Shown: piece after piece, positions 10,766-24,701 of the stretch
Layout: each line of letters begins with the position of its first letter
Numbering within the stretch: the stretch's first letter is position 1
Virus record (IMG/VR): IMGVR_UViG_3300035162_001964
Span: 1-24,701 of that record
Origin: a virus
Reading direction: 5' to 3' (one strand)
DNA length: 24,701 bases
Translations under genes and position numbers: made by a program
Notes under the pieces: model-generated
What the model saw: the letters and a program-made list of their open reading frames with translations, nothing else
Told to the model about the DNA's origin: nothing
The model's database searches: none

Positions 10766-11563
10766 ATGCAAGTATCTGAACTATTCAATTTAATTAATAC
10801 TAAATTACCAACGGCTGGGACTGCACACTATAATGCAGTCCTTTCTGCTGATTCTACATCTCCGCAGGTGCAATATTTTAGTCCGGCAGGTGACAACTAC
10901 TACACTATTATTAAAAACGATAGAACATATAAAACAAGTTCGATGGGCGAAACTATGCACATCGAATATCATACTCCGACACACTATTATACACTTAATA
11001 ACGTATTCACTGAAACTACAATCGAACTTCATAATCAGTTTAGAACTATTATGAATACAGTAGGCATTGTAGTTCCAGTATGTACTGCTCACGAGTTAGT
11101 TGATGTTGAAGGTGAAAATTGGGTATATAACGCTTGGCAAAAACCTTTTGCAGGATGCAATCAAGTTATGACTATAGCAACTACATTAGGACATGATGGT
11201 AACTCTCTTATTAACAACACCTGTGTAAATGCTATTACTATGTTAAATTGTTTAGCATCAGCATCGCAAGGGTCTAAAGTTTGGCCTACAATACATAATC
11301 AATCTAAAGTTGACTCAACATCATTTTATTCAAATGACAACGGCGAATGGTTTTACAAGGCTCCGATGGCGTATACAAATAGATACGAAATGGATGTTAC
11401 AGAGTATGCTACTGAGTCAACAACATTTATACAAGCATTAAAACAATTAACTGTTATAAATCCACATATGCATTCAAACATTAATATAATAACAAATTAC
11501 TTAACTAATTTAGATTCTAATGTTTTTGACGTTGATCAAATTTTGGAGAGCCACAATGCTTAA
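10766..11563 (+). CDS. Uncharacterised 265-residue protein
   Basis: I do not recognise this protein. It starts MQVSELFNLINTKLPTAG, is rich in Thr, Asn and Tyr (YYTIIKNDRTYKTSSM, YHTPTHYYTLNNVFTETTIE) and has moderately spaced cysteines (VCTAHE, FAGCNQ, NNTCVNA, LNCLAS). The composition with many Tyr/Asn/Thr and the late-promoter-like leader could suit a virion protein, but there are no collagen, beta-helix or Ig-like repeats. It has no signal peptide and no membrane segment. The 3' end overlaps the next gene by 8 nt, and the two are followed by a strong terminator, so they form a two-gene unit. An 8-bp hairpin lies early in its coding sequence. Confidence 0.75.
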   Translation: MQVSELFNLINTKLPTAGTAHYNAVLSADSTSPQVQYFSPAGDNYYTIIKNDRTYKTSSMGETMHIEYHTPTHYYTLNNVFTETTIELHNQFRTIMNTVGIVVPVCTAHELVDVEGENWVYNAWQKPFAGCNQVMTIATTLGHDGNSLINNTCVNAITMLNCLASASQGSKVWPTIHNQSKVDSTSFYSNDNGEWFYKAPMAYTNRYEMDVTEYATESTTFIQALKQLTVINPHMHSNINIITNYLTNLDSNVFDVDQILESHNA

Positions 11564-11777
11564 TTTAGACGTAGGTGTTTTAAATATTGAAAGTGAAGAA
11601 GTAGAATCACTGCTTAACGTACACCCTAATGCAATGACCCAACTAATAGCAGTCTACTCAGAGCACACAGGTTACGCACTATGGATTAAAAATACAGTAT
11701 CAGGTGATATAAATATTGCAACAGCAAATTCTAACACTACTGAAGTTCGTAGAGTTATCACTACACTACTAAGCTAA
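11556..11777 (+). CDS. Small uncharacterised protein, 73 residues
   Basis: A 73-residue protein starting MLNLDVGVLNIESEEVESLL and ending TTEVRRVITTLLS. The ATG at 11556 is preferred over an upstream in-frame ATG because GGAG at 11544-11547 sits about eight bases before it and it overlaps the preceding gene by only 8 nt. It contains a central stretch TQLIAVYSEHTGYALWIKN that looks like two strands and ends in a helix. No cysteines or leader-core pattern is present, so I do not consider it a ribosomal-peptide precursor. It is the last gene before the terminator that separates the phage core from the accessory cluster. Confidence 0.68.
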   Translation: MLNLDVGVLNIESEEVESLLNVHPNAMTQLIAVYSEHTGYALWIKNTVSGDINIATANSNTTEVRRVITTLLS

Positions 11778-11848: not shown

Positions 11849-12472
11849 TTAGCTATTTAGTGGTGTTTTAACGGTGTATCCAAAGAAATCAATGTCACGT
11901 TCATTGAGTTTTGCTATGGCTGCAATGCTTGCACTATTGAAATGCTCTTTAAATTCCCAATGATCATATCCTGTAATATCAGGCAATGGCAAGTTACACC
12001 CTAAGTACTCTTGTACAGGTTTTAAATCTTTTTCTAGTGTTTCTGCTTTACATATATAATCAGCCCATTCGTTGTTTACATTAATAAAGTCTACTTGATT
12101 AGTAAAGCGATTAAACCATCTTGGAAATTCAAACGGAATATCCGGGTTACAATAATCAGCAACCCACTCATTGATAGGCTTTAGTTCTAACACAGTTTGT
12201 CCATTCCAATCTAACCAATACCCTTCGTCACGTACTTTACGGTATAAGCTAAACACTCTTTGCCATGGATTGCGTACTACAGTTATTGTCTTGGCATGCG
12301 GATAGTGTTCACGTACTGTACCTAAGTGTGGATGATTGATCATCCAGTCCACGTGAGTTAGTACATTAAAGTTAGGATGTAACCAATCTGCAATAACCTT
12401 CTTCATTGCCATGCCAGTTCTAGGAACGTGTACATAAGCAAGCTCAGGTTTATCTATATAGAATGTGCCCAT
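11849..12472 (-). CDS. Sulfotransferase-like protein (PAPS-dependent family)
   Basis: A 207-residue protein with the two nucleotide-binding marks of the sulfotransferase superfamily. The first is YVHVPRTGMAMKKVI at about 13-27, in the place of the 5'-phosphosulfate loop. The second is TVVRNPWQRVFSLYRK at about 64-79, the 3'-phosphate site with its Arg and Ser. The first loop differs from the usual PKTGGTS form, so donor binding may be altered. The family moves sulfate from PAPS to hydroxyl or amino groups of glycans, lipids or tyrosine. It is last in a three-gene minus-strand operon, joined to the desaturase gene by a TAATG overlap. In a phage it could decorate a lipid or glycan made by the neighbouring enzymes. 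It may instead be an inactive homologue. Confidence 0.78.
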   Translation of the reverse strand: MGTFYIDKPELAYVHVPRTGMAMKKVIADWLHPNFNVLTHVDWMINHPHLGTVREHYPHAKTITVVRNPWQRVFSLYRKVRDEGYWLDWNGQTVLELKPINEWVADYCNPDIPFEFPRWFNRFTNQVDFINVNNEWADYICKAETLEKDLKPVQEYLGCNLPLPDITGYDHWEFKEHFNSASIAAIAKLNERDIDFFGYTVKTPLNS

Positions 12473-13242
12473 TAGTTAATCTTAATTAACTTAATTAATG
12501 ATCCCATTAAGTCCCACTCCCACCATTTTTCGCCAGTGTGATAATTTGCAGGCTTTGCATGATGGTTGTTGTGCCATCCTTCACCTAAACTAACAATGTT
12601 AGCAATCCAACTATTAGAACTATGATCTTTTGTTTCATGATTTCTGTAACCATGATAGTGTCCAAGTATGTTCACAACACCGATTAAATGCATAGTTACA
12701 CTAGCAGGCACTACGTATGCAAACAAGAACAGCATAGGATCAATTGCTAGCAATACTATGCAGTAGGCAAATATAATTTTAAAATAGTTGTTGAATATAA
12801 ATTTGTGTGTAGGATTACGTATTAAATCTTTTACGAACTTAATTGGAATGTTTGGAATCTTCCAGTCATAGCCTAGCCATATCTTAGCAGCTTCAGTTAA
12901 ACTAAACTTGCCGTTAGCATAAGGTGAATGGGGATCACCTTCTCTATCTGATTTGGCATGATGCTGTCTATGTACTGCTACCCAATTAATAGTAGGTCCT
13001 ACTGTGCTAATAACGCTAATATACGATAGTGCTTTTTCGAGCCAGGCGTATGTTGCAAAGCTACGATGAGTTAATAGTCTATGAAGTGTTATAACACTGC
13101 TCACAGGCCCAATAACAAACCATACAGCGAGTGCTATCCAGAGGTACGTGTATTGTTGAGTGTACACTGCATATGCTATAGCAGGAACCGTAATAACGTG
13201 ATTAAATGCTTGCAGTGATATTAATTTAGTAGTTAACTTCAT
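12472..13242 (-). CDS. Membrane fatty acid desaturase (acyl-CoA/acyl-lipid delta-9 type)
   Basis: A 256-residue integral membrane di-iron enzyme that puts a double bond in an acyl chain using O2 and an electron donor. The three histidine boxes are intact: HRLLTH at 54-59, HRQHH at 91-95 and HNNHH at 224-228, with GHYHG and WHNNHHAKP in the family context. Hydrophobic segments precede box one and lie between boxes two and three (about 15-52, 70-90 and 150-190). The length is short but usual for bacterial delta-9 desaturases. The start overlaps the upstream gene by ATGA and the stop overlaps the sulfotransferase start by TAATG. Electron partners are not in the window and would come from the host. 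It probably alters host membrane lipids or supplies an unsaturated acyl chain to the cluster's product. Confidence 0.93.
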   Translation of the reverse strand: MKLTTKLISLQAFNHVITVPAIAYAVYTQQYTYLWIALAVWFVIGPVSSVITLHRLLTHRSFATYAWLEKALSYISVISTVGPTINWVAVHRQHHAKSDREGDPHSPYANGKFSLTEAAKIWLGYDWKIPNIPIKFVKDLIRNPTHKFIFNNYFKIIFAYCIVLLAIDPMLFLFAYVVPASVTMHLIGVVNILGHYHGYRNHETKDHSSNSWIANIVSLGEGWHNNHHAKPANYHTGEKWWEWDLMGSLIKLIKIN

Positions 13243-13862
13243 TTACCTTCCTCTAACTTAGTCCATTCTTCGTGAGTTATAGTTGTAGGTGCCCAATCTG
13301 CAAAGGCACCTGGTTTTGTCTCTTTCCATACAAAATTTTGCCAACACTTTTGTACAGGCCATGGACAAGTTTGTATATATCCATTTGTTCCTAATGCCCA
13401 TGCACCGTTACTGGCAATATCCATGTGCTTGCACCATACTTTCCAAAATCCTCTGTTAGGTCTTGCAGGACGATTTTGCATTGTAATTAAGTAAACTTCA
13501 TAAGTATTTACTTCTTCTAGTGCATCTATTAGTTTACAACTGCATCGAAAGCCATCGGTCATCTCTGACGCAGTCATTCTAAAGTCTGGAAAAGTGTACA
13601 ATCTATTCACTTGTTTAGCTACGTTGGGAGGATATCTACTATCGTTAAACACACCTCCCATTACCATAGGTTTACCCGTGCTGGTTTGGTAAAGGACACC
13701 GTAGCCTGAGTGTTCTTCTATTTTTAAATTTTCTCTAGTATAATTATTACGCAGCCAATTATCTTCTTCTAAGCAAATATCTCTTACTTTTTCAAACTCA
13801 GATGTGGACTCGTAATAAATTTTAACGTGTGTATTGTCTAAGTCGTATTTATTGGTCATCAT
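13239..13862 (-). CDS. Uncharacterised protein, possibly GNAT-fold acyltransferase
   Basis: A 207-residue protein starting MMTNKYDLDNTHVKIYYEST. Features that recall an N-acyltransferase (GNAT) fold are an early helix (SEFEKVRDICLEEDNWLRNN), a beta pair with GYGVLYQTSTGKPMVMGGVF and a basic turn RPARPNRGFWKVWCKH. The classical Q/RxxGxG/A acetyl-CoA loop is not clear, so this is only a suggestion. A Trp-rich C terminus (CPWPVQKCWQNFVWKE) is unusual. It is first in the minus operon with the desaturase and sulfotransferase genes, so an acyl-transfer role would fit the context. A longer frame exists only with TTG. Codons 1 and 2 are both ATG, and no Shine-Dalgarno is visible. Confidence 0.65.
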   Translation of the reverse strand: MMTNKYDLDNTHVKIYYESTSEFEKVRDICLEEDNWLRNNYTRENLKIEEHSGYGVLYQTSTGKPMVMGGVFNDSRYPPNVAKQVNRLYTFPDFRMTASEMTDGFRCSCKLIDALEEVNTYEVYLITMQNRPARPNRGFWKVWCKHMDIASNGAWALGTNGYIQTCPWPVQKCWQNFVWKETKPGAFADWAPTTITHEEWTKLEEGK

Positions 13863-13865
13863 AAT

Positions 13866-13881
13866 ATATTTACATAAATAT
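13866..13881. promoter_or_regulatory. Palindromic divergent late-promoter-like element
   Basis: ATATTTA-CA-TAAATAT is a perfect 7-bp inverted repeat in the 35-bp gap between the two divergent operons. Each strand reads an ATAAATAT- or GTAAATAT-type core toward its own gene, at 17 nt or less from the start. AGGAGAG at 13887-13893 is the ribosome site of the plus gene. Confidence 0.38.
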
Positions 13882-13897
13882 TTTTTAGGAGAGTTCG

Positions 13898-14500
13898 ATG
13901 TTGGATACTGTAACAAAACTTAATTTTAAACTAGATATTAACGAACTACAACAATACTATAACAAATTAAATACAGACTATCAACATTTGGATTGGAGTT
14001 GGGAGAAGTGTGGCAATGATATTGTTAAGCAATGGCGAGATGCTGCTTACCAAGATCCTGCTAACTTACTAACACACGGCTGGGCTATACAAAGTAATCT
14101 AAAAGATATTACAATACCGTGTCCTCCGTGGAATATCAGCAAACATGCAACAGTAGCTTATCGTAATACAGAATTAGTATTTGGTATAATTAGCCGGTTG
14201 CAAGATAAGATACCGTTTGGATATCGCTGGAGTGTAAGTGTGCAACCATCAGGTGGCAAAGTTAGTATACACACTGATGCAAAAGACGAGTACACTGTGT
14301 GGTTGCCTATTCACACTTGCGGTCCTGCAATAACATTTGACAAGGAATACGAACTAGTTGCAGACGGCAGTGCTTACTTGTTAAATACTACACAACCTCA
14401 TCATACATTTAATTCTAGTAATGAAGATAGAGTTACTATTATTTTTAGATTAAAGCAAGATAAACTCAACGACTTATTATCGTTACAAGGTACTATATGA
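13898..14500 (+). CDS. 2-oxoglutarate/Fe(II) oxygenase-like protein (Asp/Asn hydroxylase-like)
   Basis: A 200-residue protein whose C-terminal half has the double-stranded beta-helix signature of non-heme iron oxygenases. SIHTDAKDEYTVWLPIH contains the HxD pair (H125, D127), and GSAYLLNTTQPHHTFNSS contains the distal histidine (H168 or H169). The arginine R178 in EDRVTIIFRL would bind 2-oxoglutarate. The arrangement is closest to the aspartyl/asparaginyl hydroxylase-like branch. The N-terminal half (WSWEKCGNDIVKQWRDAAY, CPPWNISKHATVAYRN) is not recognised. It starts the five-gene plus operon behind a strong AGGAGAG site. The stop overlaps the next start by ATGA. The substrate is unknown; hydroxylation of a product of the neighbouring enzymes is an inference. 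Confidence 0.78.
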   Translation: MLDTVTKLNFKLDINELQQYYNKLNTDYQHLDWSWEKCGNDIVKQWRDAAYQDPANLLTHGWAIQSNLKDITIPCPPWNISKHATVAYRNTELVFGIISRLQDKIPFGYRWSVSVQPSGGKVSIHTDAKDEYTVWLPIHTCGPAITFDKEYELVADGSAYLLNTTQPHHTFNSSNEDRVTIIFRLKQDKLNDLLSLQGTI

Positions 14501-15189
14501 ACTACGAATATTATTGGAATGACATTCCTGGTGAAGGGAAATGTCGTAATAATTTAATTTACACAAGTCTTATGAGCCAAGATACTAAAATATTTTGTCA
14601 ATGGTTCTACAATGATGAAGTTTATCATAAAGGACAAAACGAAGTAGTTGATCCAAAACTAATGCAAGAGAAATTTGATAGAGAAGTTCAATACTCGTTA
14701 CTTATGGAAAAGCATTATCCGCAACACGTTTCCACAATTAAAGATATTGATGTAGAAAAACGTAAACTTTATTTAGAAGTAGACGGGGTTGACTTTTGGA
14801 ATCGTGCTAACTGTAGTGTAGAAAATTATGATAGTGTGCTGCCTGACTGGCGAGAACAGATGCTTGAAATATTACAAGCATATAAAGACCTAGGATTATA
14901 CAAATACAGTTTGCATCCTAGTAGTTACTTTATGGTAGACGGAAAACTAAAAAGCTTTAACCATTTCTTCTGTTATCATGAAGGCGAAGGTCCAATTAGT
15001 ATTGCAGATCATGCTAGTCATATATATAGTACACGCCAAGAAATAATGCGAATACAAGTAGAAGCTATGGGCATAAGCTGGGATGAACCCGAGCCACTGA
15101 GCGTATTACAACATCTATGTTTTGAAAGTTTTAGAAAAAACTACACTGATGATTTTATTGATGCTGCAAAGAAAATCTGGAACAATTAA
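14497..15189 (+). CDS. Uncharacterised protein with degenerate kinase-like motif
   Basis: A 230-residue protein. The segment DLGLYKYSLHPSSYFMVDGK, continuing LKSFNHFF, at about 131-158 aligns by eye with the catalytic loop of phosphotransferases (H.DLHPGN...DGKLK..DF), but the catalytic Asp, the Asn and the DFG-like Asp are replaced. An upstream helix EKFDREVQYSLLMEKHYP and strands TIKDIDVEKRKLYLEVDGVD fit the N lobe of a kinase-like fold. I read it as a possible pseudokinase or a distant lipopolysaccharide-kinase relative; the match is short and untested. It overlaps the oxygenase gene before it (4 nt) and the radical SAM gene after it (1 nt), so it is a coupled part of the pathway. Lacking catalytic residues, it may bind a substrate or partner. 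Confidence 0.6.
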   Translation: MNYEYYWNDIPGEGKCRNNLIYTSLMSQDTKIFCQWFYNDEVYHKGQNEVVDPKLMQEKFDREVQYSLLMEKHYPQHVSTIKDIDVEKRKLYLEVDGVDFWNRANCSVENYDSVLPDWREQMLEILQAYKDLGLYKYSLHPSSYFMVDGKLKSFNHFFCYHEGEGPISIADHASHIYSTRQEIMRIQVEAMGISWDEPEPLSVLQHLCFESFRKNYTDDFIDAAKKIWNN

Positions 15190-16364
15190 TGAATCAATTT
15201 ACACAATCAGCTATAGACAAAATACACTCTGCAATATCAGAAGAACACGGTACTGAATTATTACCCACTGTTAGTCTATGTCAACACTGTCATTATCATG
15301 TGCCCGCTTGGCGATATCATAAAGACGGACAAGTGTTTATAGCAAAACATTGTGAAACACATGGCATAAGTCATCACATGATTGAAAGTGATTATGAATT
15401 TTATAAAGGGTTGTATTACACACAAGACAATCCGAAATATAATTACAACACAGGAATTTTAGTTGAAGTAACTGACAGATGTAATTTAGAATGTCCACAC
15501 TGTTATCATTTACCTGATAATGAAATTGTAGATACTTCTAGATTCAGTTTACTTAGAAGTATACTGTTGCTTCCGTTAGGTGAAATTACAAGAATAATAT
15601 TGTCAGGAGCAGAAGCAACACTTCGAAAAGATTTTGCAAGATTAGTATCTGATATTAATAGTTTGCGTCCAGACATCGATGCAACTGTTATGACTAATGG
15701 AATACAGTTTGGGAATGAAAAGTTTGTTAAGGAAGTTAAGGAATCTAATCTAGCCGGTGTATGTATCGGTCTTAATCATCCTAACTATATAAATCATAAA
15801 GTAGTTCGTAAAAAACAAATAGCTGCAATTGAAAATATGCATAAATTAGATATTCCTATTAGTTATATCTCGTACACTATGATCGACTTAGATGAAGTAA
15901 GCGACATCATGAATGAAATTTGTGACAACTTTTGGAAAACTAAAAACTTTAGAATTCGGTACGGATCAGATATTGGACGCAACCCTGGACAAGTTCGCAT
16001 ATTTGTGAGTGATGTATACAAAGCAATCGAACAGTGGTGCAATGATAATAACAAGACCTTTGAAAGAATTATAGAAGCAGACAACAACATTTATCATGTT
16101 ATGGCAAAGGTAGAAGGCAGAGATATTAGAATTATACAATGGTGTGACGAAACAGATATCGACATGGAAGAATTACGTTCAGGGCCTTGGTGCAACTTTG
16201 TACCAGATGGCATAACTAATTTTCTACATCAAATTATACGCAGAGACTTATGGAAGAACTCAGGACTTAAATTACCCGACAGTCCTCCAAATAGATACAA
16301 GTTTGCAGTTAACCCAAGTAAAGAACCACTTGACTTGTTAAATTTATACAATAGGAAAATATAA
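15189..16364 (+). CDS. Radical SAM protein with N-terminal zinc-ribbon-like domain (COG1964/Tes-like)
   Basis: A 391-residue radical SAM enzyme. The [4Fe-4S] site is CNLECPHC with C98, C102 and C105. SGAEATLRKDF stands where family members have GGEPTL, so the GGE motif is altered to GAE. Residues 31-58 hold CQHC...HCETHG, a zinc-ribbon-like block that, with the sequence around it (VPAWRYHKDGQVFIAKHCETHG as a pattern), resembles the N terminus of archaeal/bacterial COG1964 radical SAM proteins. That group includes the tetraether lipid synthase; the resemblance is from memory. The C-terminal part has two more cysteines (IQWCDE, GPWCNF). It is fused by 1-nt overlaps to the genes on both sides. 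If the resemblance holds, radical chemistry on an acyl chain would fit the desaturase nearby. Confidence 0.85.
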   Translation: MNQFTQSAIDKIHSAISEEHGTELLPTVSLCQHCHYHVPAWRYHKDGQVFIAKHCETHGISHHMIESDYEFYKGLYYTQDNPKYNYNTGILVEVTDRCNLECPHCYHLPDNEIVDTSRFSLLRSILLLPLGEITRIILSGAEATLRKDFARLVSDINSLRPDIDATVMTNGIQFGNEKFVKEVKESNLAGVCIGLNHPNYINHKVVRKKQIAAIENMHKLDIPISYISYTMIDLDEVSDIMNEICDNFWKTKNFRIRYGSDIGRNPGQVRIFVSDVYKAIEQWCNDNNKTFERIIEADNNIYHVMAKVEGRDIRIIQWCDETDIDMEELRSGPWCNFVPDGITNFLHQIIRRDLWKNSGLKLPDSPPNRYKFAVNPSKEPLDLLNLYNRKI

Positions 16365-17173
16365 TGATTAAAGGTATTAACGGACAACCATACTTAGATA
16401 TGGAACAACACATAGACATGGATACTTTTGAAAAGTTACAGCCAGAAATTATGCGAGGTTTTGCCGAAGCAAGATGGTTTGCAAAAGAAGGCACATGGAT
16501 GAAGCCAGGTTTCGAATTTAAAGACATGAGTTACACACTTAATTGGAAACCTATATATGCTGCAATGGAAGAGTTTCAATCGTTGCCCGACGATGACCCT
16601 ATTAAAGTAGAAGGTATGAAAATATGGCCTACAGACTTTAAAGACTATAAACAACGTAATGTAATTACACGTTATCTTAAAATGGCAATGGAAGCATACG
16701 ACCCTTATATCTATTACTTCTTACACGAAGAAGGCAACTGGGACGATCGCCCCGAAGAGAAAAAACAAACTGAAGAATCGCAATTCTTTCCTAATACTAT
16801 GAAATGGTTACAAGGATTTAAGGACAATGGAATATTCGAATCCTTTGGACGAGTGATGTTCTTTCACTGTGAAGCAGACGGATTGCCATTTGAACATAGA
16901 GACTTAGGAGCGCACAACGGTACTTGGCCTAAAGAAAAGTATGAAGATCACAACAACGAATTTATACACATACGTCCGGATACACGTAACCAATTTTATA
17001 TATGGGACCCAGACAGTAAGATGAAATATGGTATAAACACTCGTGCAGCTTTTTGGAATGACCAAGACTGGCATGGCGGCAATCGTGTAATGCATCCTAC
17101 ATACGGTATGCGTATCGACGGAACATTTACTGATGCATTTAGAGAAAAATTAAAATTAAGCGGAACTTATTAA
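16364..17173 (+). CDS. 2-oxoglutarate/Fe(II) oxygenase-like protein
   Basis: A 269-residue protein. Its C-terminal part shows the iron-binding triad pattern: PFEHRDLG with H178 and D180, DQDWHGGN with the distal H237, and R250 in YGMRIDGTF in the place of the 2-oxoglutarate-binding arginine. The strands GRVMFFHCEA before the first His and FYIWD...YGINTRAAFWN between are what the jelly-roll needs. The N-terminal 160 residues are helical and not recognised (EIMRGFAEARWFAKEGTWM, ITRYLKMAMEAYDPYIYYF). Its stop and start overlap its neighbours by one base, and it lies between two radical SAM genes. It probably acts on the same substrate series. Alternatives include other cupin-fold enzymes that do not need 2-oxoglutarate. 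Confidence 0.72.
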   Translation: MIKGINGQPYLDMEQHIDMDTFEKLQPEIMRGFAEARWFAKEGTWMKPGFEFKDMSYTLNWKPIYAAMEEFQSLPDDDPIKVEGMKIWPTDFKDYKQRNVITRYLKMAMEAYDPYIYYFLHEEGNWDDRPEEKKQTEESQFFPNTMKWLQGFKDNGIFESFGRVMFFHCEADGLPFEHRDLGAHNGTWPKEKYEDHNNEFIHIRPDTRNQFYIWDPDSKMKYGINTRAAFWNDQDWHGGNRVMHPTYGMRIDGTFTDAFREKLKLSGTY

Positions 17174-18801
17174 TGTACGACATTATATTATTTGGAGATA
17201 TGCCCGACCGTAATACATATTCAAGGGCTAGCGGAGCACACCGTATTGGCACTGAATTACGTGAGCACGGGTATTCGGTATTAGTAGTTGACTTTTCTAA
17301 CTATATTGACATTGATAAATTTAGTGAGATAATAGATTTAGCTGTTGGTGAAAACACCTTAGGTGTTGGATTTAGTACTACATGGTTTCCATTTGTGTTA
17401 CCTGATGGTTCTGCTAGTAATAGAGAACCAATGAAGCCTGCAATGCGATTTAATAAAGCAGCCGAGAACCTTTCAGAAAGTTTACCTGTGGAATTTGCAG
17501 GTGCAGACGTTGAAAAATACTTCGATAAAATAAGATCTGTAAATCCTAAAACAAAAGTAATACTAGGTGGCGCAAAAGCGTTTATGTATATTAACTTGCC
17601 CGGCATCGATAATGTGTTTATCGGACATGCAGAAACTATGATTGTAGAATACTTCGACAGTTTAAGTGGAAAGACTTCTGACAGGATTTGGAATAAAATA
17701 ATCGATCACGATAAGAAAGCACAACGTCCTTCATGGGACTTTCGCAAAAGTAATATAAGTTATGAAGATGAATCATTTATATTGCCTAGCGAAACATTAC
17801 TACTAGAAGTAGGCAGAGGTTGCAGATTTAATTGCAAGTTTTGTAGTTTTCCATTAATTGGACAAAAGAATATCGGCGATTATTTAAAATTTGAAGAATG
17901 CCTATACAACGAATTAATGGAGAACTGGAATCGATTTGGTACATGGAAATATACCATTGTCGACGATACGTTTAATGATAGCACAGAAAAGTTGGAAATG
18001 GTTAAACGAGTTGTAGATCGCTTGCCGTTTAAACCTGCGTTTTGGTGTTACTTACGCTTAGATATAATCGTGAACAATCGTGAACATATACAGTTAGCAA
18101 AAGATATCGGAATAAGAGAAGTATATTTTGGCATAGAAACGCTAAATCGCGAAGCTGGTAAATCTATTGGCAAGGGAATGGATCCTAAACGTATCACTGA
18201 CACTCTAGAAGAATGTGCAAGAGTGTGGGGAAGAGATACATGGATACAAACAGGACTAATATGCGGCCTGCCTAAAGACAATGTCGCTGACTTTGAAAAA
18301 AGCTGTGAGTATTTTAATCGTCCAGATCGCCCTGTTGGACATGTTAATACAACTCCGTTACGGATTATTAAACATACCGAATACACCAAGCATAGGTTTA
18401 ACGCTGCATTTGAATTAGAATCAGCAAAGTACGGATATGAGTTTCCATACGACGATGTACAATGGCGCTGGATTAAAAAGGACGGTAGTGACATTGATAC
18501 TTTTGAAAAAGCAACAGACTTGGCAATAAAGTGGCAACTACAATTAGATACACATATCGAATTTAGGCGTGAATTCTTTTATTTAAGCTGCATCAATGAT
18601 CCTAAATATGATTATAATACATTAATGAATATCGAGACAAAGGAAGAGCTTCATAATTATATGGGTAATCGACAAGCACTAATGCATACACAGATTTTAG
18701 AAGATTACTTTAAACCGTTAATGAACTTTCTTTGCAGCCGTAAACGTGAACAAGAACTTAGTAGTCAAACCAGCATTAAATCCAGCGTGCCAACTATCTA
18801 A
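17173..18801 (+). CDS. Cobalamin-type radical SAM protein
   Basis: A 542-residue enzyme with an N-terminal Rossmann-like region in the place of a B12-binding domain (residues 1-160: MYDIILFGDMPDRNTYSR, GAHRIGTELREHGYSVLVVD, KTKVILGGAKA, IDNVFIGHAE). A radical SAM domain follows with GRGCRFNCKFCSF (C217, C221, C224) and LRLDIIV, EVYFGIET and LICGLP strands. The DxHxxG cobalamin-histidine motif is not seen, as in other B12-binding-like members that may have lost or changed the ligand. Such enzymes methylate unreactive carbon or rearrange rings and chains. The last 84 bp overlap, tail to tail, an oxygenase gene on the other strand. It ends the plus quintet and starts by a TAATG overlap. The long C terminus (about 400-542) has no clear match. 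Confidence 0.85.
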   Translation: MYDIILFGDMPDRNTYSRASGAHRIGTELREHGYSVLVVDFSNYIDIDKFSEIIDLAVGENTLGVGFSTTWFPFVLPDGSASNREPMKPAMRFNKAAENLSESLPVEFAGADVEKYFDKIRSVNPKTKVILGGAKAFMYINLPGIDNVFIGHAETMIVEYFDSLSGKTSDRIWNKIIDHDKKAQRPSWDFRKSNISYEDESFILPSETLLLEVGRGCRFNCKFCSFPLIGQKNIGDYLKFEECLYNELMENWNRFGTWKYTIVDDTFNDSTEKLEMVKRVVDRLPFKPAFWCYLRLDIIVNNREHIQLAKDIGIREVYFGIETLNREAGKSIGKGMDPKRITDTLEECARVWGRDTWIQTGLICGLPKDNVADFEKSCEYFNRPDRPVGHVNTTPLRIIKHTEYTKHRFNAAFELESAKYGYEFPYDDVQWRWIKKDGSDIDTFEKATDLAIKWQLQLDTHIEFRREFFYLSCINDPKYDYNTLMNIETKEELHNYMGNRQALMHTQILEDYFKPLMNFLCSRKREQELSSQTSIKSSVPTI

Positions 18802-19290
18802 CTCAGGATATCTGTATATACTACCTTGTGCTTCCATATAGAAACATTCATCTTCAACCATAAATGCTTGGCCGGGCTTTGGTTTGTCTATAAAGCATAT
18901 ACCTCTTATCAATTCATCTGAAGTATACTCTCTAGTTATTCCAGGATCTTCTGCTAGACTAGGAATGTCCCAATGCCAAGGCGCACATTTTCCTGGTTTG
19001 ATTTCACTAATAAAGCTTTGCAATATTTCAGCATCAATTGTGTCATTTATCACTGCATGAATATCGTTCTTATATTGATACCCTGGCTTGTAATGAAAAA
19101 ATTCTATGCTATCTCCTCGAGTATAGCCGCTTTCTTCTGCCCTTTGCTTTGATGCTAAATGTTCTTGATAATGTTTATGATTAGGGTCAAGGGTGCGATG
19201 GCCAGTAAATGGAGTAACAGTGTGTTCCAGACACTGATCAATTACTAAATCACATAATTCTGTAGATATTTTTCCTAAGTAATGTTTCAT
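18718..19290 (-). CDS. 2-oxoglutarate/Fe(II) oxygenase-like protein
   Basis: A 190-residue protein of compact jelly-roll type. The sequence has SEIKPGKCAPWHWDIPS with H106 and D108 of the HxD pair and ELDSWHAGFNAG with the distal H168. TTKFLFTF follows, where the basic K178 could take the place of the arginine usual for 2-oxoglutarate. The pattern GICFIDKPKPGQAFMVEDEC lies between as the central sheet. Small oxygenases of this kind are often seen in marine phages. It is second in a two-gene minus operon (4-nt overlap with the gene upstream) and overlaps the cobalamin-type radical SAM gene by 84 bp on the other strand. Both frames in that overlap look real, because the last beta strand and tail of this protein are encoded there. 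Confidence 0.72.
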   Translation of the reverse strand: MKHYLGKISTELCDLVIDQCLEHTVTPFTGHRTLDPNHKHYQEHLASKQRAEESGYTRGDSIEFFHYKPGYQYKNDIHAVINDTIDAEILQSFISEIKPGKCAPWHWDIPSLAEDPGITREYTSDELIRGICFIDKPKPGQAFMVEDECFYMEAQGSIYRYPELDSWHAGFNAGLTTKFLFTFTAAKKVH

Positions 19291-19970
19291 ATTGCTGTTC
19301 CTATTGCTATATTAAAGTATGAAGATTCTATTAATTTAAATTCTTCTAGATGACTACTTTCGATATTGAACGATACACAATCATTATTATATGTAAACCT
19401 ATTTACTATATTATTTTTGTTTGCTGCATTAAGCCAAGGACTATACAGCTCGTCAAACACATATCTATAATCAGGATTTAGATCCTTTATCGTCATTGTT
19501 ACATGCAGCGGGTCTGTTAATACATTTTTGTTAAGAAGCTTTCTAACTACTAATTGTATTCTATCAATTCGACCTGTGTTTACTGCACTATGTATTTCGC
19601 CAGCGTTCATATCAGCCCAATAGGATGATTCTTCTTGCGGATATATCAAATTAGCATCAGTATATATTACAAAGCTTCGCTCTCCTTGAATATTAAAGTG
19701 ATATCTATCGTCAATATCTGCATGAGAGCGATATGCTTGACCTGGTTCAAGTTTTATCAAACGTGCTTCGCCTATATTACTAGGTAATGTAGATACTAAC
19801 TTATCCCATATTGTTCCTTTGTACTGTTCCTTAATAGTCCAAGGATCATAGAAGAAATCTCCAGTAGGCTCATTTAGAGGTAACTTAAATACAACATCTA
19901 TATCGGCTGATTCTAAGTCTTTTCTAATACTATCGTTGACAAAGTAGTTGGTCTGTGTTATCATAAACAT
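19287..19970 (-). CDS. Aspartyl/asparaginyl hydroxylase-like Fe(II) oxygenase
   Basis: A 227-residue protein in which residues about 66-145 match the beta-hydroxylase branch of 2-oxoglutarate oxygenases. EARLIKLEPGQAYRSHADID has H83 and D85, MNAGEIHSAVNTG has the distal H127, and R137 in RIDRIQLVVRKL fits the 2-oxoglutarate site. The N-terminal part (FFYDPWTIKEQYKGTIWDKL) and the last 80 residues are not recognised. It heads a two-gene minus operon with the other oxygenase gene. An exact T4 late-promoter octamer TATAAATA overlaps its first ATG on the minus strand, so the true start may be the ATG two codons on (MITQTNYF). Its 5' coding end also carries, on the other strand, the promoter of the radical SAM trio. 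Confidence 0.78.
   Translation of the reverse strand: MFMITQTNYFVNDSIRKDLESADIDVVFKLPLNEPTGDFFYDPWTIKEQYKGTIWDKLVSTLPSNIGEARLIKLEPGQAYRSHADIDDRYHFNIQGERSFVIYTDANLIYPQEESSYWADMNAGEIHSAVNTGRIDRIQLVVRKLLNKNVLTDPLHVTMTIKDLNPDYRYVFDELYSPWLNAANKNNIVNRFTYNNDCVSFNIESSHLEEFKLIESSYFNIAIGTAI
19936..19964 (+). promoter_or_regulatory. Sigma70-like promoter of the radical SAM trio, inside a divergent gene
   Basis: TTGACA at 19936-19941, 17-bp spacer, TATCAT at 19959-19964, 39 nt before the ATG at 20004. It lies entirely in the 5' coding end of the minus-strand oxygenase gene. The boxes and spacing match the five other promoters of the window. Confidence 0.55.
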
Positions 19971-19973
19971 ATT

Positions 19974-19989
19974 TATATGCGTAGTTAAT
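19974..19989 (+). repeat. 16-bp direct repeat, copy 2
   Basis: TATATGCGTAGTTAAT is identical to 2459-2474, in the 33-bp leader of the radical SAM trio, downstream of its promoter. It would be in the 5' untranslated part of the mRNA. Confidence 0.5.
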
Positions 19990-20003
19990 GGATAAGTACT
20001 GTT

Positions 20004-21272
20004 ATGAACAATAAATCATGTACGTTTTGTATGCATCCCTTTACAGGACTAGCTACACGAGAAGATGGCGCTATTAAAGTATGCTGTCGTAGTCAGCCTG
20101 TGGGATTTATACAAAATGAAACACTAGAACAAGCATGGAATAACGATACAATGCGCGAAGTGCGTAGACAAGTTCTTAATAATGAAAGGCCGGATGTGTG
20201 CAAACCGTGCTTTGATTTAGAAGATCAGGGTGTACAGAGCTTACGACAGCGTCATACAGCAGGTGTAATACCAGAAGCACGGATAAACTTATATCCTGAT
20301 GCACTAGATGCACTAGAAGACGATTATACAATGCCGTTTGAATTTCCTACTATGGAAATTAAACTTAATAACCTGTGTAACTTAAAATGTCGTATGTGCA
20401 ATCCACTAGACAGTACAAGTTGGAAGGATTGGGGAGAAGTTACTGAATTCTATAAAAAGGAAGACAACTACTTAATTCCAACTATTGAAGGATTAGTTAA
20501 CAAACCAGGGCAGTATATTGGGCCATTTGATAACAGTGATAACTGGTGGGCAAGTTTTGAAAAGCTACTGCCTTTCTTTAGACGTGTAGAGTTTGCAGGT
20601 GGCGAACCGCTAATGGATCCATACCATTATAAGATATTAGACAAGCTTGCAGAGTACGGCGACAACATAGAATTAAAGTACGCTACAAACGGCACTAAGC
20701 TAGGTATTAAAGGTGGAAGAACAATCCACGACTATTGGCCTAAGTTTCGTAGTATAGCTGTAAACGTAAGCATAGACGGTGTACATGACGTTTACGAGTA
20801 CATTAGAGGCAATGGCAAATTTAGCGAAGTAGAAGAAAACATCAAAGTATTTAAAAGCTTTCCTAATGTAAGTCGTGTAGTTGGTGCCTTTACTGTACAA
20901 GCAAATAACATAATGCAAATTGATAAAGTTATCGATTACTTTATTAACGAACTAGGAATTATATTTTATTCGCACAGAGTAAACTATCCTATGAGTCTAA
21001 GTGCGCAAGTATTGCCGCCTGAATTGAAAACAAAAGTAGTAGCACGGTTAGAACAAATGAAAACAGAAGTATTAGAATATCCTCTAGTAAAGCAACACAA
21101 ACTATTAGAAACTGTAACACTACAACAAATACAAGATAATATTAATTTCTTAGAGTCAAAGTGTATGTATGAAACACATTGGCAAGACTGTATAGAGTTT
21201 AACAAGCGTTTAGATAAAACTCGTGGGCAGGACTTTCTTGCAGCTAATCCAGAGTTTGCAGCATATGTTTAA
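20004..21272 (+). CDS. Radical SAM protein with N-terminal twitch domain
   Basis: A 422-residue enzyme with an N-terminal cysteine-rich twitch-like module: SCTFCMHPF (C6, C9), IKVCCRS (C27, C28) and DVCKPCFD (C66, C69), which probably holds an auxiliary cluster. The radical SAM core follows with LNNLCNLKCRMCN (C125, C129, C132) and EFAGGEPLMD as the GGE motif. NVSIDGVHDVYEYIRG is the usual SAM-sulfonium-side strand and loop. The architecture (SPASM-like half moved to the N terminus) is that of the twitch-domain radical SAM proteins I recall from marine phages and bacteria. No substrate is known for them. It is the first gene of a plus trio behind a leader promoter. The last codons ...AYV-stop overlap the next start by 8 nt. 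Confidence 0.88.
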   Translation: MNNKSCTFCMHPFTGLATREDGAIKVCCRSQPVGFIQNETLEQAWNNDTMREVRRQVLNNERPDVCKPCFDLEDQGVQSLRQRHTAGVIPEARINLYPDALDALEDDYTMPFEFPTMEIKLNNLCNLKCRMCNPLDSTSWKDWGEVTEFYKKEDNYLIPTIEGLVNKPGQYIGPFDNSDNWWASFEKLLPFFRRVEFAGGEPLMDPYHYKILDKLAEYGDNIELKYATNGTKLGIKGGRTIHDYWPKFRSIAVNVSIDGVHDVYEYIRGNGKFSEVEENIKVFKSFPNVSRVVGAFTVQANNIMQIDKVIDYFINELGIIFYSHRVNYPMSLSAQVLPPELKTKVVARLEQMKTEVLEYPLVKQHKLLETVTLQQIQDNINFLESKCMYETHWQDCIEFNKRLDKTRGQDFLAANPEFAAYV

Positions 21273-22179
21273 AGTAGAAAGTCGTTGGGGACATCATACT
21301 AGTATCCATGTAGAATGGAATATAGGTAAACGATGTAACTTAGATTGCGGATATTGTCCTGCAGAAATACACGATAACTTTAGTCCACACACTGACTTAG
21401 ATAAAATGGTTAATACTATCTACGAATTAGAAAAGATAGGTAAGCCTATTCGTCTTAGTTTAACTGGTGGTGAGCCCACTGTGCATCCTAAAATTAATAA
21501 CATACTAGAATGTGCCAGAGCAAGGTTACAATGGCTAAGTGTTACAACTAATGGGTTGCGTAGTGCAGACTGGTATATCAAACAACCAGTTAATCAATGG
21601 GTGTTTAGTTTGCATTTTGATAATGAACACAGTCAACGAGCTGCTGAAAACATTGTTAGATATTCGCAATTACTAGATATGGAAGGTAAAGATACTCTGT
21701 TTCAAGTTAATCTAATGGCACACCACAAACACATGGATGCTGTAAGGGCGGCAGCTATCTTACTAGAAGGACATAATATTCCGTATGTTTGCAGACGTAT
21801 ACGATGGACTAAAGCTGAAGAACGAGACTATTTTGACGATATGCGATATGCTGAAAAAGACCTAGAATGGATATTAAGCAAAACTGCAACTGTAAAGGCA
21901 AACTGTGTAGTAGATGATGAACACAAGATACATGCTAATGATGTTATTAAGCATAAATTAAATCAATTTGAAGGATGGACTTGCAACGCTGGATTAGAAA
22001 GTTTAATGATTAACTGGGACGGTGAAGTACATCGTGCTACTTGTAGAGTTGGTGATAGTTTAGGCAACATATACAACGGCACATTTGAATCTCCTGTTGC
22101 TCCTGTAATTTGTACACGTAAATGGTGTACGTGTGTAGCAGACATTCCACTAACAAAGGTATTAGATGTTAAAGACTAG
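21265..22179 (+). CDS. Radical SAM protein with C-terminal cysteine cluster
   Basis: A 304-residue radical SAM enzyme. I start it at ATG 21265 (MFKVESRWGHHTSIHVEWN), which overlaps the preceding gene by 8 nt; an upstream in-frame ATG would overlap it by 50 nt. The iron-sulfur motif is GKRCNLDCGYCPAE (C24, C28, C31), and LSLTGGEPTVHP (GGEP at 68-71) completes the SAM site. The C-terminal part has GWTCNAG, RATCRVG and VICTRKWCTCVAD, a spacing like a SPASM/twitch auxiliary-cluster domain, with SLMINWDGEVHRA as its beta hairpin. It is coupled to its neighbours on both sides (8-nt and 14-nt overlaps). Peptide-modifying radical SAM enzymes often have this design, but a substrate cannot be named. 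Confidence 0.86.
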   Translation: MFKVESRWGHHTSIHVEWNIGKRCNLDCGYCPAEIHDNFSPHTDLDKMVNTIYELEKIGKPIRLSLTGGEPTVHPKINNILECARARLQWLSVTTNGLRSADWYIKQPVNQWVFSLHFDNEHSQRAAENIVRYSQLLDMEGKDTLFQVNLMAHHKHMDAVRAAAILLEGHNIPYVCRRIRWTKAEERDYFDDMRYAEKDLEWILSKTATVKANCVVDDEHKIHANDVIKHKLNQFEGWTCNAGLESLMINWDGEVHRATCRVGDSLGNIYNGTFESPVAPVICTRKWCTCVADIPLTKVLDVKD

Positions 22180-23197
22180 CGCAATAAGATTACCTAACCC
22201 AGAACGCCTTATGGTTACATGGGATACCGGGCGCAGATGTAATTTTGATTGCACCTACTGCGAAGCAACTAGACACGACAATAAAAGTGCGCCACATAGT
22301 TACGAAGAGCTAGTGCGTACATTTGAGTTTGTAAAGAAGTACACAGGTGAGCAATTAGTTAATATAAACTTTACAGGCGGTGAACCTACAGTTAATCCAG
22401 CGTTTTGGCAATTAGCAGAATATATACACACTAATGAAACACGCTTTAGACTTAGCTTAACTACTAACGGTGCGTGGCATCCTAAAAATACAGACCGTAT
22501 TGCAAAATGGTTTGAAGGCGTTACTGTAAGCTATCATGCCGAAGGACACGCAATACTTAAAAAGCAGACAATGGATAATATTAAGCTGCTGCATGACTTA
22601 GGCATTTGGTTGCAAGTTAATGTAATGATGCACGTTGACCATTTTGACGAGTGTAAGCAAGTGTGTGCTGAACTTAAAGAACTAGGTGTAAAGCACAATC
22701 CACGTCCTATCGGAGACGGTAATATTGAACGTGAAGGTTGGTTTATAGACAGTGACGGATCACAACGGCGTACTAGTCATACTTACTCTGAAGAGCAAAC
22801 ACAATGGTATTATCAATACCTAGGAGTAACAAGTCCAAAGGAAGGGCGTAACTGCTGTGGTGGAAGATGTGTGCAGGGAAAAATAAACGGCAAATGGCAA
22901 GATGTAAACTTTATTGACACTAACTTTAAGGGATGGTTTTGTAGTGTCAACAAGTACTTCTTACACATAGATCAACACACAGGCAATGTGTATCATCATC
23001 AGACATGTCAAGCACTACACGACGGTCTTAGAGGCCCGCTAGGCAACTTAAACAATACTGATGCAATATTTGAGTATGTACAAGTTAATAAGGATAAAAC
23101 TATTGTGTGTCCTAACAATAGATGCGGCTGCGGAATGTGTGTGCCTAAAGCAAAAGAACTATTAGACTATACTTCTATACTCGGGAAAAGTGTTTAA
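22166..23197 (+). CDS. Radical SAM/SPASM-like protein
   Basis: A 343-residue radical SAM enzyme. The core motif is GRRCNFDCTYCEAT (C25, C29, C32), followed by NFTGGEPTVNP. The last 120 residues are cysteine-rich: RNCCGGRCVQG, GWFCSVNKYFLHIDQHTGNV, HQTCQAL and CPNNRCGCGMCVPKA, which fits a SPASM-like domain with one or two auxiliary [4Fe-4S] clusters. Its C-terminal third is clearly paralogous to the partial protein at the right edge (GPLGNLNNTDAIF and GPIGNLKNTQAIL; CGCGMCVPKA and CNCGLCAPKA). The start overlaps the preceding gene by 14 nt, and the 3' end overlaps the opposite-strand radical SAM gene by 36 bp. It is similar to, yet distinct from, the gene just upstream (shared CN.DC.YC and GGEPTV.P). 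Confidence 0.87.
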   Translation: MLKTSAIRLPNPERLMVTWDTGRRCNFDCTYCEATRHDNKSAPHSYEELVRTFEFVKKYTGEQLVNINFTGGEPTVNPAFWQLAEYIHTNETRFRLSLTTNGAWHPKNTDRIAKWFEGVTVSYHAEGHAILKKQTMDNIKLLHDLGIWLQVNVMMHVDHFDECKQVCAELKELGVKHNPRPIGDGNIEREGWFIDSDGSQRRTSHTYSEEQTQWYYQYLGVTSPKEGRNCCGGRCVQGKINGKWQDVNFIDTNFKGWFCSVNKYFLHIDQHTGNVYHHQTCQALHDGLRGPLGNLNNTDAIFEYVQVNKDKTIVCPNNRCGCGMCVPKAKELLDYTSILGKSV

Positions 23198-24403
23198 GAA
23201 GTTTTTCTGTCTGCGTGTATCATATTCTATTACAAACGCTTTAAAGTCTTGTTGCTGTTTTTCAGTTGATTCTAATTTAAACTGCTGTATTACAAAATCA
23301 AACCTTTGTACAGTTTCATTATTAAAGTGTTTCTTAATAGTAGAACGATCATCTTCAAGCAAGCCAATCAAAGATTTAGGTGCTAAACTAGGATGAAGAA
23401 AATCCGGGTGTCTTACATAACTTATACTAAGCTGTACACGTTTGTATGTGTTTTTTAACTTTATTATATCTTTCAAAAATAAATTAAATGTAGAGACACT
23501 TAATACATTGTAAGCACACATCAAATTCAATCGTAGTTTAGGCATTGCTGTTAATACATAATTGCAATTTTTTAACCATTGCTGATAATCTAGGCCATCA
23601 CGGGCATATTCTGCTTGCTTACCATATGCTTCGCCGCTAGTTGCTATTTCGACTTTCTTAACACTAGGCTGTATCTTCTTTAGTTTTTCTATAAAGTTTT
23701 CAATAACTTTCTTAGGAGCACCTAAGTTACTATTAATTACTACTGTTAGTTTTTTGTTAGGATGCTTTGCAATGTAGTCTAATAATATATCTGTATGACG
23801 ACTGAGCATTGGTTCTCCGCCAGTAATACGAAGTATATGTAGCTTGTCATACATTGTAGGCAAATACTTCCAAAATGCATCAATATATGGATTATGTTCT
23901 TTATCTAATATTTGAGGCTCGTTTATTTGGTTGTAGTTATTGCTAGTAGGATATGCTCCTAAGTTAGAAATTTCACTTGTCCATAAGCTACTAAATTGCG
24001 GGCCGCAGTATGCACACTTAAAGTTACACACATTTGAAAAACTAACTTCGAGCATTGTAGGATCATAACGATCACTAGTAATAATATCTTTGCGGTACGG
24101 CAACGCTAAACGCTTCTTGCTCATAAGCACACGGTCGCTGTACTTTTCTGTTTTCTCAATGCGCCAGCAATAATCGCACTCGCTAGGACGTTCTCCATTA
24201 AGCATTTGATTTCTAACTTTGCGCTTGTATGAACTATTGTGCAGTGCGCTAGGATCAGCTTCAACTTCTTCAATCGGAACTACATGAGGATCAGGATGAT
24301 GGCAACTGTGATTCTTGCCAATACCCAAGTGCATTGTGCTGTTTGTCCACTTTGCTAAACATAGACTTTCGCCTAGTTTGTTTTTCACATACCAGTTAAA
24401 CAT
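23162..24403 (-). CDS. Radical SAM protein with N-terminal twitch domain (second copy)
   Basis: A 413-residue protein from ATG 24403 (MFNWYVKNKLGESLCLAKWT). It has the same plan as the protein at 20004: an N-terminal cysteine module (C15, C34, then SECDYC with C76 and C79), a core site SNVCNFKCAYCGP (C126, C130, C133) and RITGGEPMLSRH. The rest is an alpha/beta barrel (LTVVINSN, KVEIATSGEAYGKQAEYARDGL as pattern, LSISYVRHP). Both twitch-type proteins end in a similar way (NFLNTFPEYRSIV here, DFLAANPEFAAYV there). It follows a SPASM-type gene on the minus strand by an 8-nt overlap ATGTTTAA, the same as at 21265. A longer frame upstream overlaps that gene and is not used. The twitch module and core are intact, so it is probably an active enzyme of unknown substrate. 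Confidence 0.86.
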   Translation of the reverse strand: MFNWYVKNKLGESLCLAKWTNSTMHLGIGKNHSCHHPDPHVVPIEEVEADPSALHNSSYKRKVRNQMLNGERPSECDYCWRIEKTEKYSDRVLMSKKRLALPYRKDIITSDRYDPTMLEVSFSNVCNFKCAYCGPQFSSLWTSEISNLGAYPTSNNYNQINEPQILDKEHNPYIDAFWKYLPTMYDKLHILRITGGEPMLSRHTDILLDYIAKHPNKKLTVVINSNLGAPKKVIENFIEKLKKIQPSVKKVEIATSGEAYGKQAEYARDGLDYQQWLKNCNYVLTAMPKLRLNLMCAYNVLSVSTFNLFLKDIIKLKNTYKRVQLSISYVRHPDFLHPSLAPKSLIGLLEDDRSTIKKHFNNETVQRFDFVIQQFKLESTEKQQQDFKAFVIEYDTRRQKNFLNTFPEYRSIV

Positions 24404-24701
24404 ACTTTTGCATAATCCTATCGTAATCTTCTTTGTGTTGTGCCTTGGGTGCGCACAGTCCGCAGTTACAATAAGACTTCTTACAAATAATTGTATTAGT
24501 TCCTGCATTTACACGATCTAATATTGCTTGAGTATTTTTTAAATTTCCAATAGGACCTACTTTGCCATCAAAATTCATACGACAATCTTTGTTAGTAAAT
24601 ACTTCGCCGGTTGTTTGTCTTATGTACAGGAAGTTTTTATCTACACTACAGTGCCATCCTTTAAACTTATTTTCTACACGCTTAGTACAAGCATTTTCGC
24701 T
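24396..24701 (-). CDS. C-terminal part of a radical SAM/SPASM-like protein (runs off window)
   Basis: The frame is open from the right window edge; 101 residues are visible, reading SENACTKRVENKFKGWHCSV at the left and ending MQKYV. It holds five spaced cysteine elements (ACTKR, GWHCSVDKN, KDCRMN, IICKKSYC, NCGLCAPKA). It aligns by eye with the last third of the protein at 22166-23197: FKGWHCSV/FKGWFCSV, NFLYIRQTTGEVF/YFLHIDQHTGNVY, GPIGNLKNTQAI/GPLGNLNNTDAI and CAPKA/CVPKA. The radical SAM core should lie just outside the window on the right. It precedes the twitch-type gene on the minus strand with an 8-nt overlap, which makes an inverted counterpart of the plus-strand trio. Confidence 0.82.
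   Translation of the reverse strand, partial: SENACTKRVENKFKGWHCSVDKNFLYIRQTTGEVFTNKDCRMNFDGKVGPIGNLKNTQAILDRVNAGTNTIICKKSYCNCGLCAPKAQHKEDYDRIMQKYV

Follow-up and report, generated by a model that had tools for sequence, protein, structure and literature searches.

A gene island at positions 11849-24701 of IMGVR_UViG_3300035162_001964, a linear IMG/VR fragment of 24,701 bases (the window) from a giant bacterial virus, belongs to a conserved, multi-module type of island with a phage-only core. The core consists of a protein-kinase-fold protein (KIN_E), a 2-oxoglutarate (2OG) oxygenase (OG_G) and either a GCN5-related N-acetyltransferase (GNAT)-fold protein (GNAT_C) or a protein of another family (f10). 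Among the genomes searched this core was found only in uncultured viruses, and the viruses bearing the island therefore probably make an undescribed chemical decoration. Tentatively, and from sequence evidence, we lean towards a phage-specific mix-and-match tailoring island that may build a host-recognition decoration on one scaffold, located on the virion fibre or the host envelope.

The island is 99.5% coding, with 68 non-coding bases in 12.85 kb, and the open reading frame (ORF) map bears out an earlier annotation of this stretch (the original prediction), which described fifteen consecutive genes (Table 1). Seven radical S-adenosylmethionine (rSAM) proteins had been counted; six of these are complete and carry Radical_SAM (PF04055) above cut-off in Pfam/NCBIfam searches, but the seventh (24396-24701) is only a truncated C-terminal piece. 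The other genes encode four 2OG oxygenases, a membrane desaturase, a 3'-phosphoadenosine-5'-phosphosulfate (PAPS)-type sulfotransferase, a GNAT-fold protein and a kinase-fold protein, and enzyme functions throughout the island are assigned by homology alone. The four oxygenase-like assignments hold, for OG_D through Pfam and for OG_G, OG_I and OG_J, which have no Pfam match, through an HxD...H triad kept in at least 95% of homologues; the desaturase and the sulfotransferase-like protein both exceed their Pfam cut-offs. The core motifs said to be readable are conserved in homologues, but the seventh rSAM has no CxxxCxxC within the window. Overlaps of 1-14 nt were likewise found within blocks, given ATG starts for RS_L (21265) and RS_N (24403), but those at the convergent block ends are larger (84 and 36 nt).

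Four scans of viral contigs yielded 140 loci, which together with the window form 73 non-redundant groups; the relatives' contigs are metagenomic and mostly incomplete, and their genes were called mechanically. The gene order in the closest relatives is ST-FAD-GNAT / OGD-(f12)-KIN-TES-OGG / OGI-OGJ / (PP-loop)-RS_K-RS_L, and their island proteins are often 80-94% identical, a level equal to or above that of neighbouring backbone proteins. Among the 49 groups found with OG_G, 48 contain KIN, 45 OG_I, 42 the twitch-domain rSAM and 41 OG_J. An independent scan with KIN gave at least 416 viral-contig matches, the best 80 of which (L161-L240) form 57 groups, with OG_G no more than 5 kb away in 53. 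Frames are intact in relatives, and the pairwise ratio of nonsynonymous to synonymous substitution rates (dN/dS) is 0.02-0.27 in nearly all pairs, with a maximum of 0.34, in keeping with purifying selection; seventeen of 18 related contigs hold 7-15 rSAM genes and the remaining contig shows one. The gene set of the window is thus not a chance assembly, because its order is kept in many viral contigs and dN/dS is low. The survey of viral contigs proposed with the original prediction accordingly found conserved co-occurrence and order of a phage-borne, maintained set, and since linkage, order and purifying selection hold across relatives, the genes are not the single, unlinked or broken copies that would have spoken against it.

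The profile of KIN_E matches the TTK kinase in the PDB (2.6e-5), and its AlphaFold model (predicted local distance difference test, pLDDT, 92; predicted template modelling score, pTM, 0.90) retrieves kinases with Foldseek at E about 1e-5. The kinase-like protein of the earlier annotation therefore stands as to its fold, by profile and structure, but it looks catalytically dead: a family motif, KYSxHPSSYF..DG..KSxN(Y/H)F, in a register set by eye, replaces the HRD Asp, the catalytic-loop Asn and the DFG Asp with family-conserved residues. KIN_E is thus a predicted pseudokinase, an active kinase being rejected because of the replaced motifs, and it would serve as a non-catalytic scaffold or binder. 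KIN_E-type pseudokinases appear to be a widespread family of uncultured viruses. OG_G has 133 relatives among viral contigs, and H178xD180...H237...R250 is invariant across 24 sequences; the equivalent residues of OG_D (H125xD127...H168...R178) are conserved in 16. Judged by these motifs, OG_D, OG_G and OG_J carry the complete 2OG-Fe(II) oxygenase signature of HxD...H plus Arg, whereas OG_I has the triad with no conserved downstream Arg listed.

GNAT_C has no Pfam match and is predicted to adopt a GNAT fold, as had been proposed: GNAT acetyltransferases make up almost all of the Foldseek top 50 (best E 6e-5) for its AlphaFold model (pLDDT 83, pTM 0.81). GNAT_C and f10 are mutually exclusive, being present in 15 and 40 groups, respectively, with both in none and neither in six. 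As they never occur together, one may take the place of the other in the island. The profile of f10 showed no similarity to that of GNAT_C, and f10 has neither a PDB relative nor a recognised fold, so the idea that it is a GNAT homologue was dropped and only mutual exclusion is claimed. Example loci of f10 and GNAT_C are L063:7591-8145 and L033:2194-2811. Relatives differ in whether they hold rSAM, Tes-like, halogenase, amidinotransferase or desaturase-sulfotransferase modules. OG_I/OG_J and a pair formed by a PP-loop protein and a twitch-domain rSAM also count among the interchangeable modules; TES_F and B12_H are optional, some relatives holding one and the window both.

No match to OG_G, KIN_E or OG_J was obtained in 50,697 phage records, and pattern scans of 84,980 cellular species genomes, within their sensitivity, detected neither OG_G nor TES_F. 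In the phage records RS_K reached only 23% identity, to Vibrio jumbo phages, and TES_F gave only partial 30% matches to Campylobacter phages.

A link with host recognition is suggested by the site of related islands. Wherever an Mtd_N tail-fibre gene is present (30 groups), it lies at the edge of the island, in 26 of these groups at a junction with backbone genes; the 30 groups span two different backbones. In a 357-kb relative the far side of the island consists of tail-collar/virion proteins. The earlier statement that no virion gene lies among these genes is therefore true of the window's island, but related islands abut the fibre gene. We propose that the conserved core pairs with swappable tailoring modules and that the enzymes would successively modify a single scaffold, a residue of amino-acid or acyl type, and that this would decorate either the fibre with which the virion binds its host or the envelope of the host. 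The variable chemistry would then be a host-recognition, receptor-masking or superinfection-exclusion trait and not an aid to central metabolism or DNA replication. Several points weigh against this proposal. The window has no Mtd_N match, and a randomisation of fibre-rSAM distances, run on 14 contigs, did not reach significance (combined P = 0.65); for these two reasons a role of the product at host recognition is held with only moderate confidence. A recombination hot spot could also account for the fibre adjacency, one would hardly expect a membrane acyl desaturase in the modification of a fibre, and OG_D, TES_F and B12_H vary between islands, which makes one fixed product unlikely. The loci, moreover, share ancestry, so the group counts are not independent and describe linkage, not probabilities. 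A bolder form of the proposal, which we consider rather unlikely, is a novel viral system, a phage-only chemical diversification island in which the pseudokinase, 2OG oxygenase and GNAT-or-f10 core would make variable modified residues, either on the fibre that binds the receptor or on the corresponding surface of the host. Enzymatic chemistry, not sequence diversification alone, would then tune host recognition or superinfection exclusion.

Three other accounts of a fibre-associated island were rejected on gene content. A classical glycan island does not fit, since the GT2 glycosyltransferase family PF00535, to which the search was limited, was above cut-off in none of 17 contigs; a collagen-hydroxylation model for the fibres was ruled out by the lack of collagen repeats in the same number of contigs; and diversification of the Mtd_N gene by a diversity-generating retroelement was discarded because RVT_1 reverse transcriptases were absent from 19 contigs. 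The 68 non-coding bases of the island leave no room for a precursor peptide, although one could be encoded at a distance. At 10766-11777, where relatives carry Mtd_N, the window contains an orphan 265-aa ORF (10766-11563) and a small ORF; for the former, neither viral contigs nor Pfam or PHROG gave any match.

The desaturase module raises the alternative that the desaturase, GNAT, sulfotransferase, OG_D and the Tes-like and B12-type rSAMs remodel the envelope or membrane by building or tailoring a lipid, both acylated and sulfated, inside infected cells. FAD_B is by sequence a bona fide membrane acyl desaturase: its top PDB match is the acyl-coenzyme A desaturase 4zyo (3.5e-10), and three His boxes (H54/H59, H91/H94/H95, H224/H227/H228) plus H195 are conserved in 19 sequences. 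It is closely linked to GNAT_C and ST, which occur in 17 and 15, respectively, of the 19 desaturase groups. The membrane desaturase itself speaks for an envelope product with an acyl chain in the case of the ST-FAD-GNAT module; 54 of the 73 groups, however, lack the module. OG_D resembles a family that includes lipid hydroxylases such as LpxO/OlsC. The best PDB relative of TES_F is the lipid enzyme tetraether synthase (Tes; 7tol, 1.3e-30), and the top NCBIfam match of B12_H is the lipid B12-binding/radical SAM family TIGR04072. Both nevertheless fall far below the family cut-offs, with 58.4 bits against 450 for TES_F (Tes, NF045702) and 48.9 against 360 for B12_H, and the TES_F match is confined to Tes residues 21-240 of 526; the low score and the missing C-terminal half rule out TES_F as a genuine tetraether synthase. 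Neither a glycerol acyltransferase nor a head-group enzyme turned up, and we regard lipid remodelling as rather unlikely. The lipid, glycan or peptide/protein pathway envisaged by the original prediction is compatible with these data in part: the desaturase and the lipid-enzyme relatives point to acyl chains, but GT2 is absent and a precursor has no room.

Relatives add a Trp halogenase (PF04820, 4.9e-93), a class-III aminotransferase, an amidinotransferase nearest to HsvA, StrB1 and SxtG, short-chain dehydrogenase/reductase-like proteins and, recognised by eye, epimerase-like and SGNH-like proteins. The aminotransferase, halogenase and amidinotransferase are located at L021:12286-13452, L006:18265-19824 and L085:17662-18735, respectively, and occur mostly in islands with a Tes-like rSAM. 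These three enzymes amount to a natural-product toolkit and would agree with the production, in the course of infection, of a diffusible toxin, siderophore or signal; phage-borne biosynthetic gene clusters, mentioned in PMC10452541 (citing Dragos 2021), offer a precedent. We nonetheless judge such a product distinctly unlikely, given that no carrier protein, non-ribosomal peptide or polyketide synthase, ligase or exporter was recognised, that no precursor peptide fits, and that the gain for a lytic phage is not obvious.

Two backbones adjoin the island, one of the MoxR type and a second (families f58/f59) whose 265-kb contig gave no MoxR or exonuclease match, and the presence of the island beside both suggests horizontal movement. 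That the two backbones share genes, implying frequent transfer, and that module content varies strongly would also be expected of a hypervariable dumping ground, in which unrelated auxiliary genes collect in a recombination-prone region with no common pathway. Such an origin is improbable in view of the fixed operon order, the short overlaps within blocks, the KIN-OG_G linkage, the mutual exclusion of GNAT_C and f10 and the strong purifying selection.

Phages use rSAM, GNAT and 2OG enzymes in DNA hypermodification, and the oxygenases and rSAMs of the island might in principle elaborate a base of the phage genome. Many of the islands encode a PP-loop-motif protein (f7) whose Cys pattern, judged by eye, is QueC-like. 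A QueE-like gene was also noticed, again by eye, close to the exonuclease of the 357-kb contig, and one is annotated in the Pseudomonas jumbo phage PA5oct. The profile of f7 matched no PDB chain, however, so it is kept as a PP-loop-motif protein and its identification as a proven QueC was dropped; the gene is also absent from the window. A thymidylate-synthase-type enzyme (PF00303) was found in just one of 17 contigs, which may be incomplete, and a variable island sited by a tail fibre is ill-suited to a genome-wide mark. DNA hypermodification is accordingly a very improbable explanation.

Returning to the host-recognition decoration that we favour, the nearest known system is the host recognition cluster of pelagimyophages. 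This large, hypervariable island occupies the structural region together with tail fibres, and rSAM cassettes are reported to have been gained in it between related phages (PMC7029224). In the 30 related groups variable, rSAM-bearing islands likewise lie by an Mtd_N tail-fibre gene, which has no match in the window. The pelagimyophages are T4-like SAR11 phages with glycosyltransferases inside the cluster, whereas the present islands adjoin a PA5oct-like jumbo or the second backbone, have no GT2 above cut-off and are distinguished by the conserved KIN/OG_G/GNAT-or-f10 core. The T4-like marine phage TARA_ERS488813_N000010, compared on number alone, has a similar count of rSAM genes, 12 being noted among Fe-S proteins in PMC5332604. 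TES_F shares the N-terminal zinc ribbon and rSAM core of Tes/HMPTM (7TOL) but is shorter (391 against 526 aa) and has no counterpart of the C-terminal half. PA5oct (Arenbergviridae) shares with the window an exonuclease followed, as there, by a MoxR ATPase, and no rSAM/oxygenase island is annotated beside that block. Phages with single rSAM or 2OG genes or with many rSAM genes are already known, and so are variable islands for host recognition; for the conserved multi-module island with a phage-only core, or for this gene combination, no description was found in the open-access literature covered. Accounts of accessory metabolism in phages mostly treat one gene at a time, and in the present case a tailoring island of many enzymes is maintained by dozens of uncultured phages. 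Its product, if found, would represent a biosynthetic chemistry peculiar to phages, would probably offer a handle on host recognition and would assign functions to widespread dark viral genes such as those of KIN_E-type proteins.

Table 1 Genes of the island in the window, with assignments and the evidence for each.
Gene	Coordinates	Strand	Assignment	Basis
ST_A	11849..12472	-	PAPS-type sulfotransferase, 207 aa	Sulfotransfer_2, 22.7 bits (cut-off 22)
FAD_B	12472..13242	-	Membrane fatty-acyl desaturase, 256 aa	FA_desaturase (PF00487), 4.6e-20, 72.9 bits (cut-off 29.7)
GNAT_C	13239..13862	-	Predicted GNAT-fold protein, 207 aa, ATG start 13862	Predicted structure
OG_D	13898..14500	+	2OG oxygenase, Asp/Arg hydroxylase-like, 200 aa	Asp_Arg_Hydrox (PF05118), 23.6 bits (cut-off 22.6)
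KIN_E	14497..15189	+	Protein-kinase-fold protein, predicted pseudokinase, 230 aa	Profile and structure
TES_F	15189..16364	+	rSAM with HMPTM/Tes-like N-terminal zinc ribbon, 391 aa	PF23545, 1.5e-11; PF04055, 7.8e-13
OG_G	16364..17173	+	Phage-specific 2OG oxygenase-like protein, 269 aa, island core	Conserved triad
B12_H	17173..18801	+	rSAM with weak B12-binding-like N-terminus, 542 aa	PF04055, 56 bits
OG_I	18718..19290	-	2OG oxygenase-like protein, 190 aa	H106xD108...H168 conserved in 75
OG_J	19287..19970	-	2OG oxygenase-like protein, 227 aa	H83xD85...H127...R137 conserved in 50
RS_K	20004..21272	+	Twitch-domain rSAM, 422 aa	NF033640, 327.8 bits (cut-off 170)
RS_L	21265..22179	+	Short rSAM; longest frame from GTG 21223	PF04055, 42.8 bits
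RS_M	22166..23197	+	rSAM, 343 aa	PF04055, 56.2 bits
RS_N	23162..24403	-	Twitch-domain rSAM; longest frame from 24508	NF033640, 296.1 bits (cut-off 170)
RS_O	24396..24701	-	C-terminal piece of RS_M-type rSAM, cut by contig end	Likeness to RS_M

Conserved residues extend to the remaining enzymes. In ST_A, R67, N68, W70, R72 and other motif residues are kept in 14 homologues. Both Pfam families of TES_F are above their cut-offs, and its zinc ribbon (C31/C34/C55/H58) and CxxxCxxC motif (C98/C102/C105) are invariant in 25 sequences. C217/C221/C224 of B12_H are conserved in 12, its B12-binding match (PF02310, 18 bits) lying under the cut-off of 32.1. RS_K conserves C125/C129/C132 plus C9, C27, C28, C66 and C69 in 57 sequences, and RS_L conserves C38/C42/C45 and a C-terminal Cys in 42. 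The NF033640 match of RS_N begins at residue 47 of its long frame, and RS_O is 46% identical to the RS_M C-terminus over 94 aa and 75% identical to complete 350-aa relatives.

To the left of the island lie phage genes for a 5'-3' exonuclease, a DNA ligase, a MoxR ATPase and a metallopeptidase-VWA protein. Identity to the PA5oct group is 49% for both the exonuclease and MoxR. For the metallopeptidase-VWA protein (7857-9167) PHROG gives 'HNH endonuclease', a label that looks wrong, as Pfam identifies a DUF2201 metallopeptidase and a VWA-like domain. Just ahead of the exonuclease, positions 1-762 hold a partial class-I fructose-bisphosphate aldolase-like gene (PF00274, 2.6e-5).

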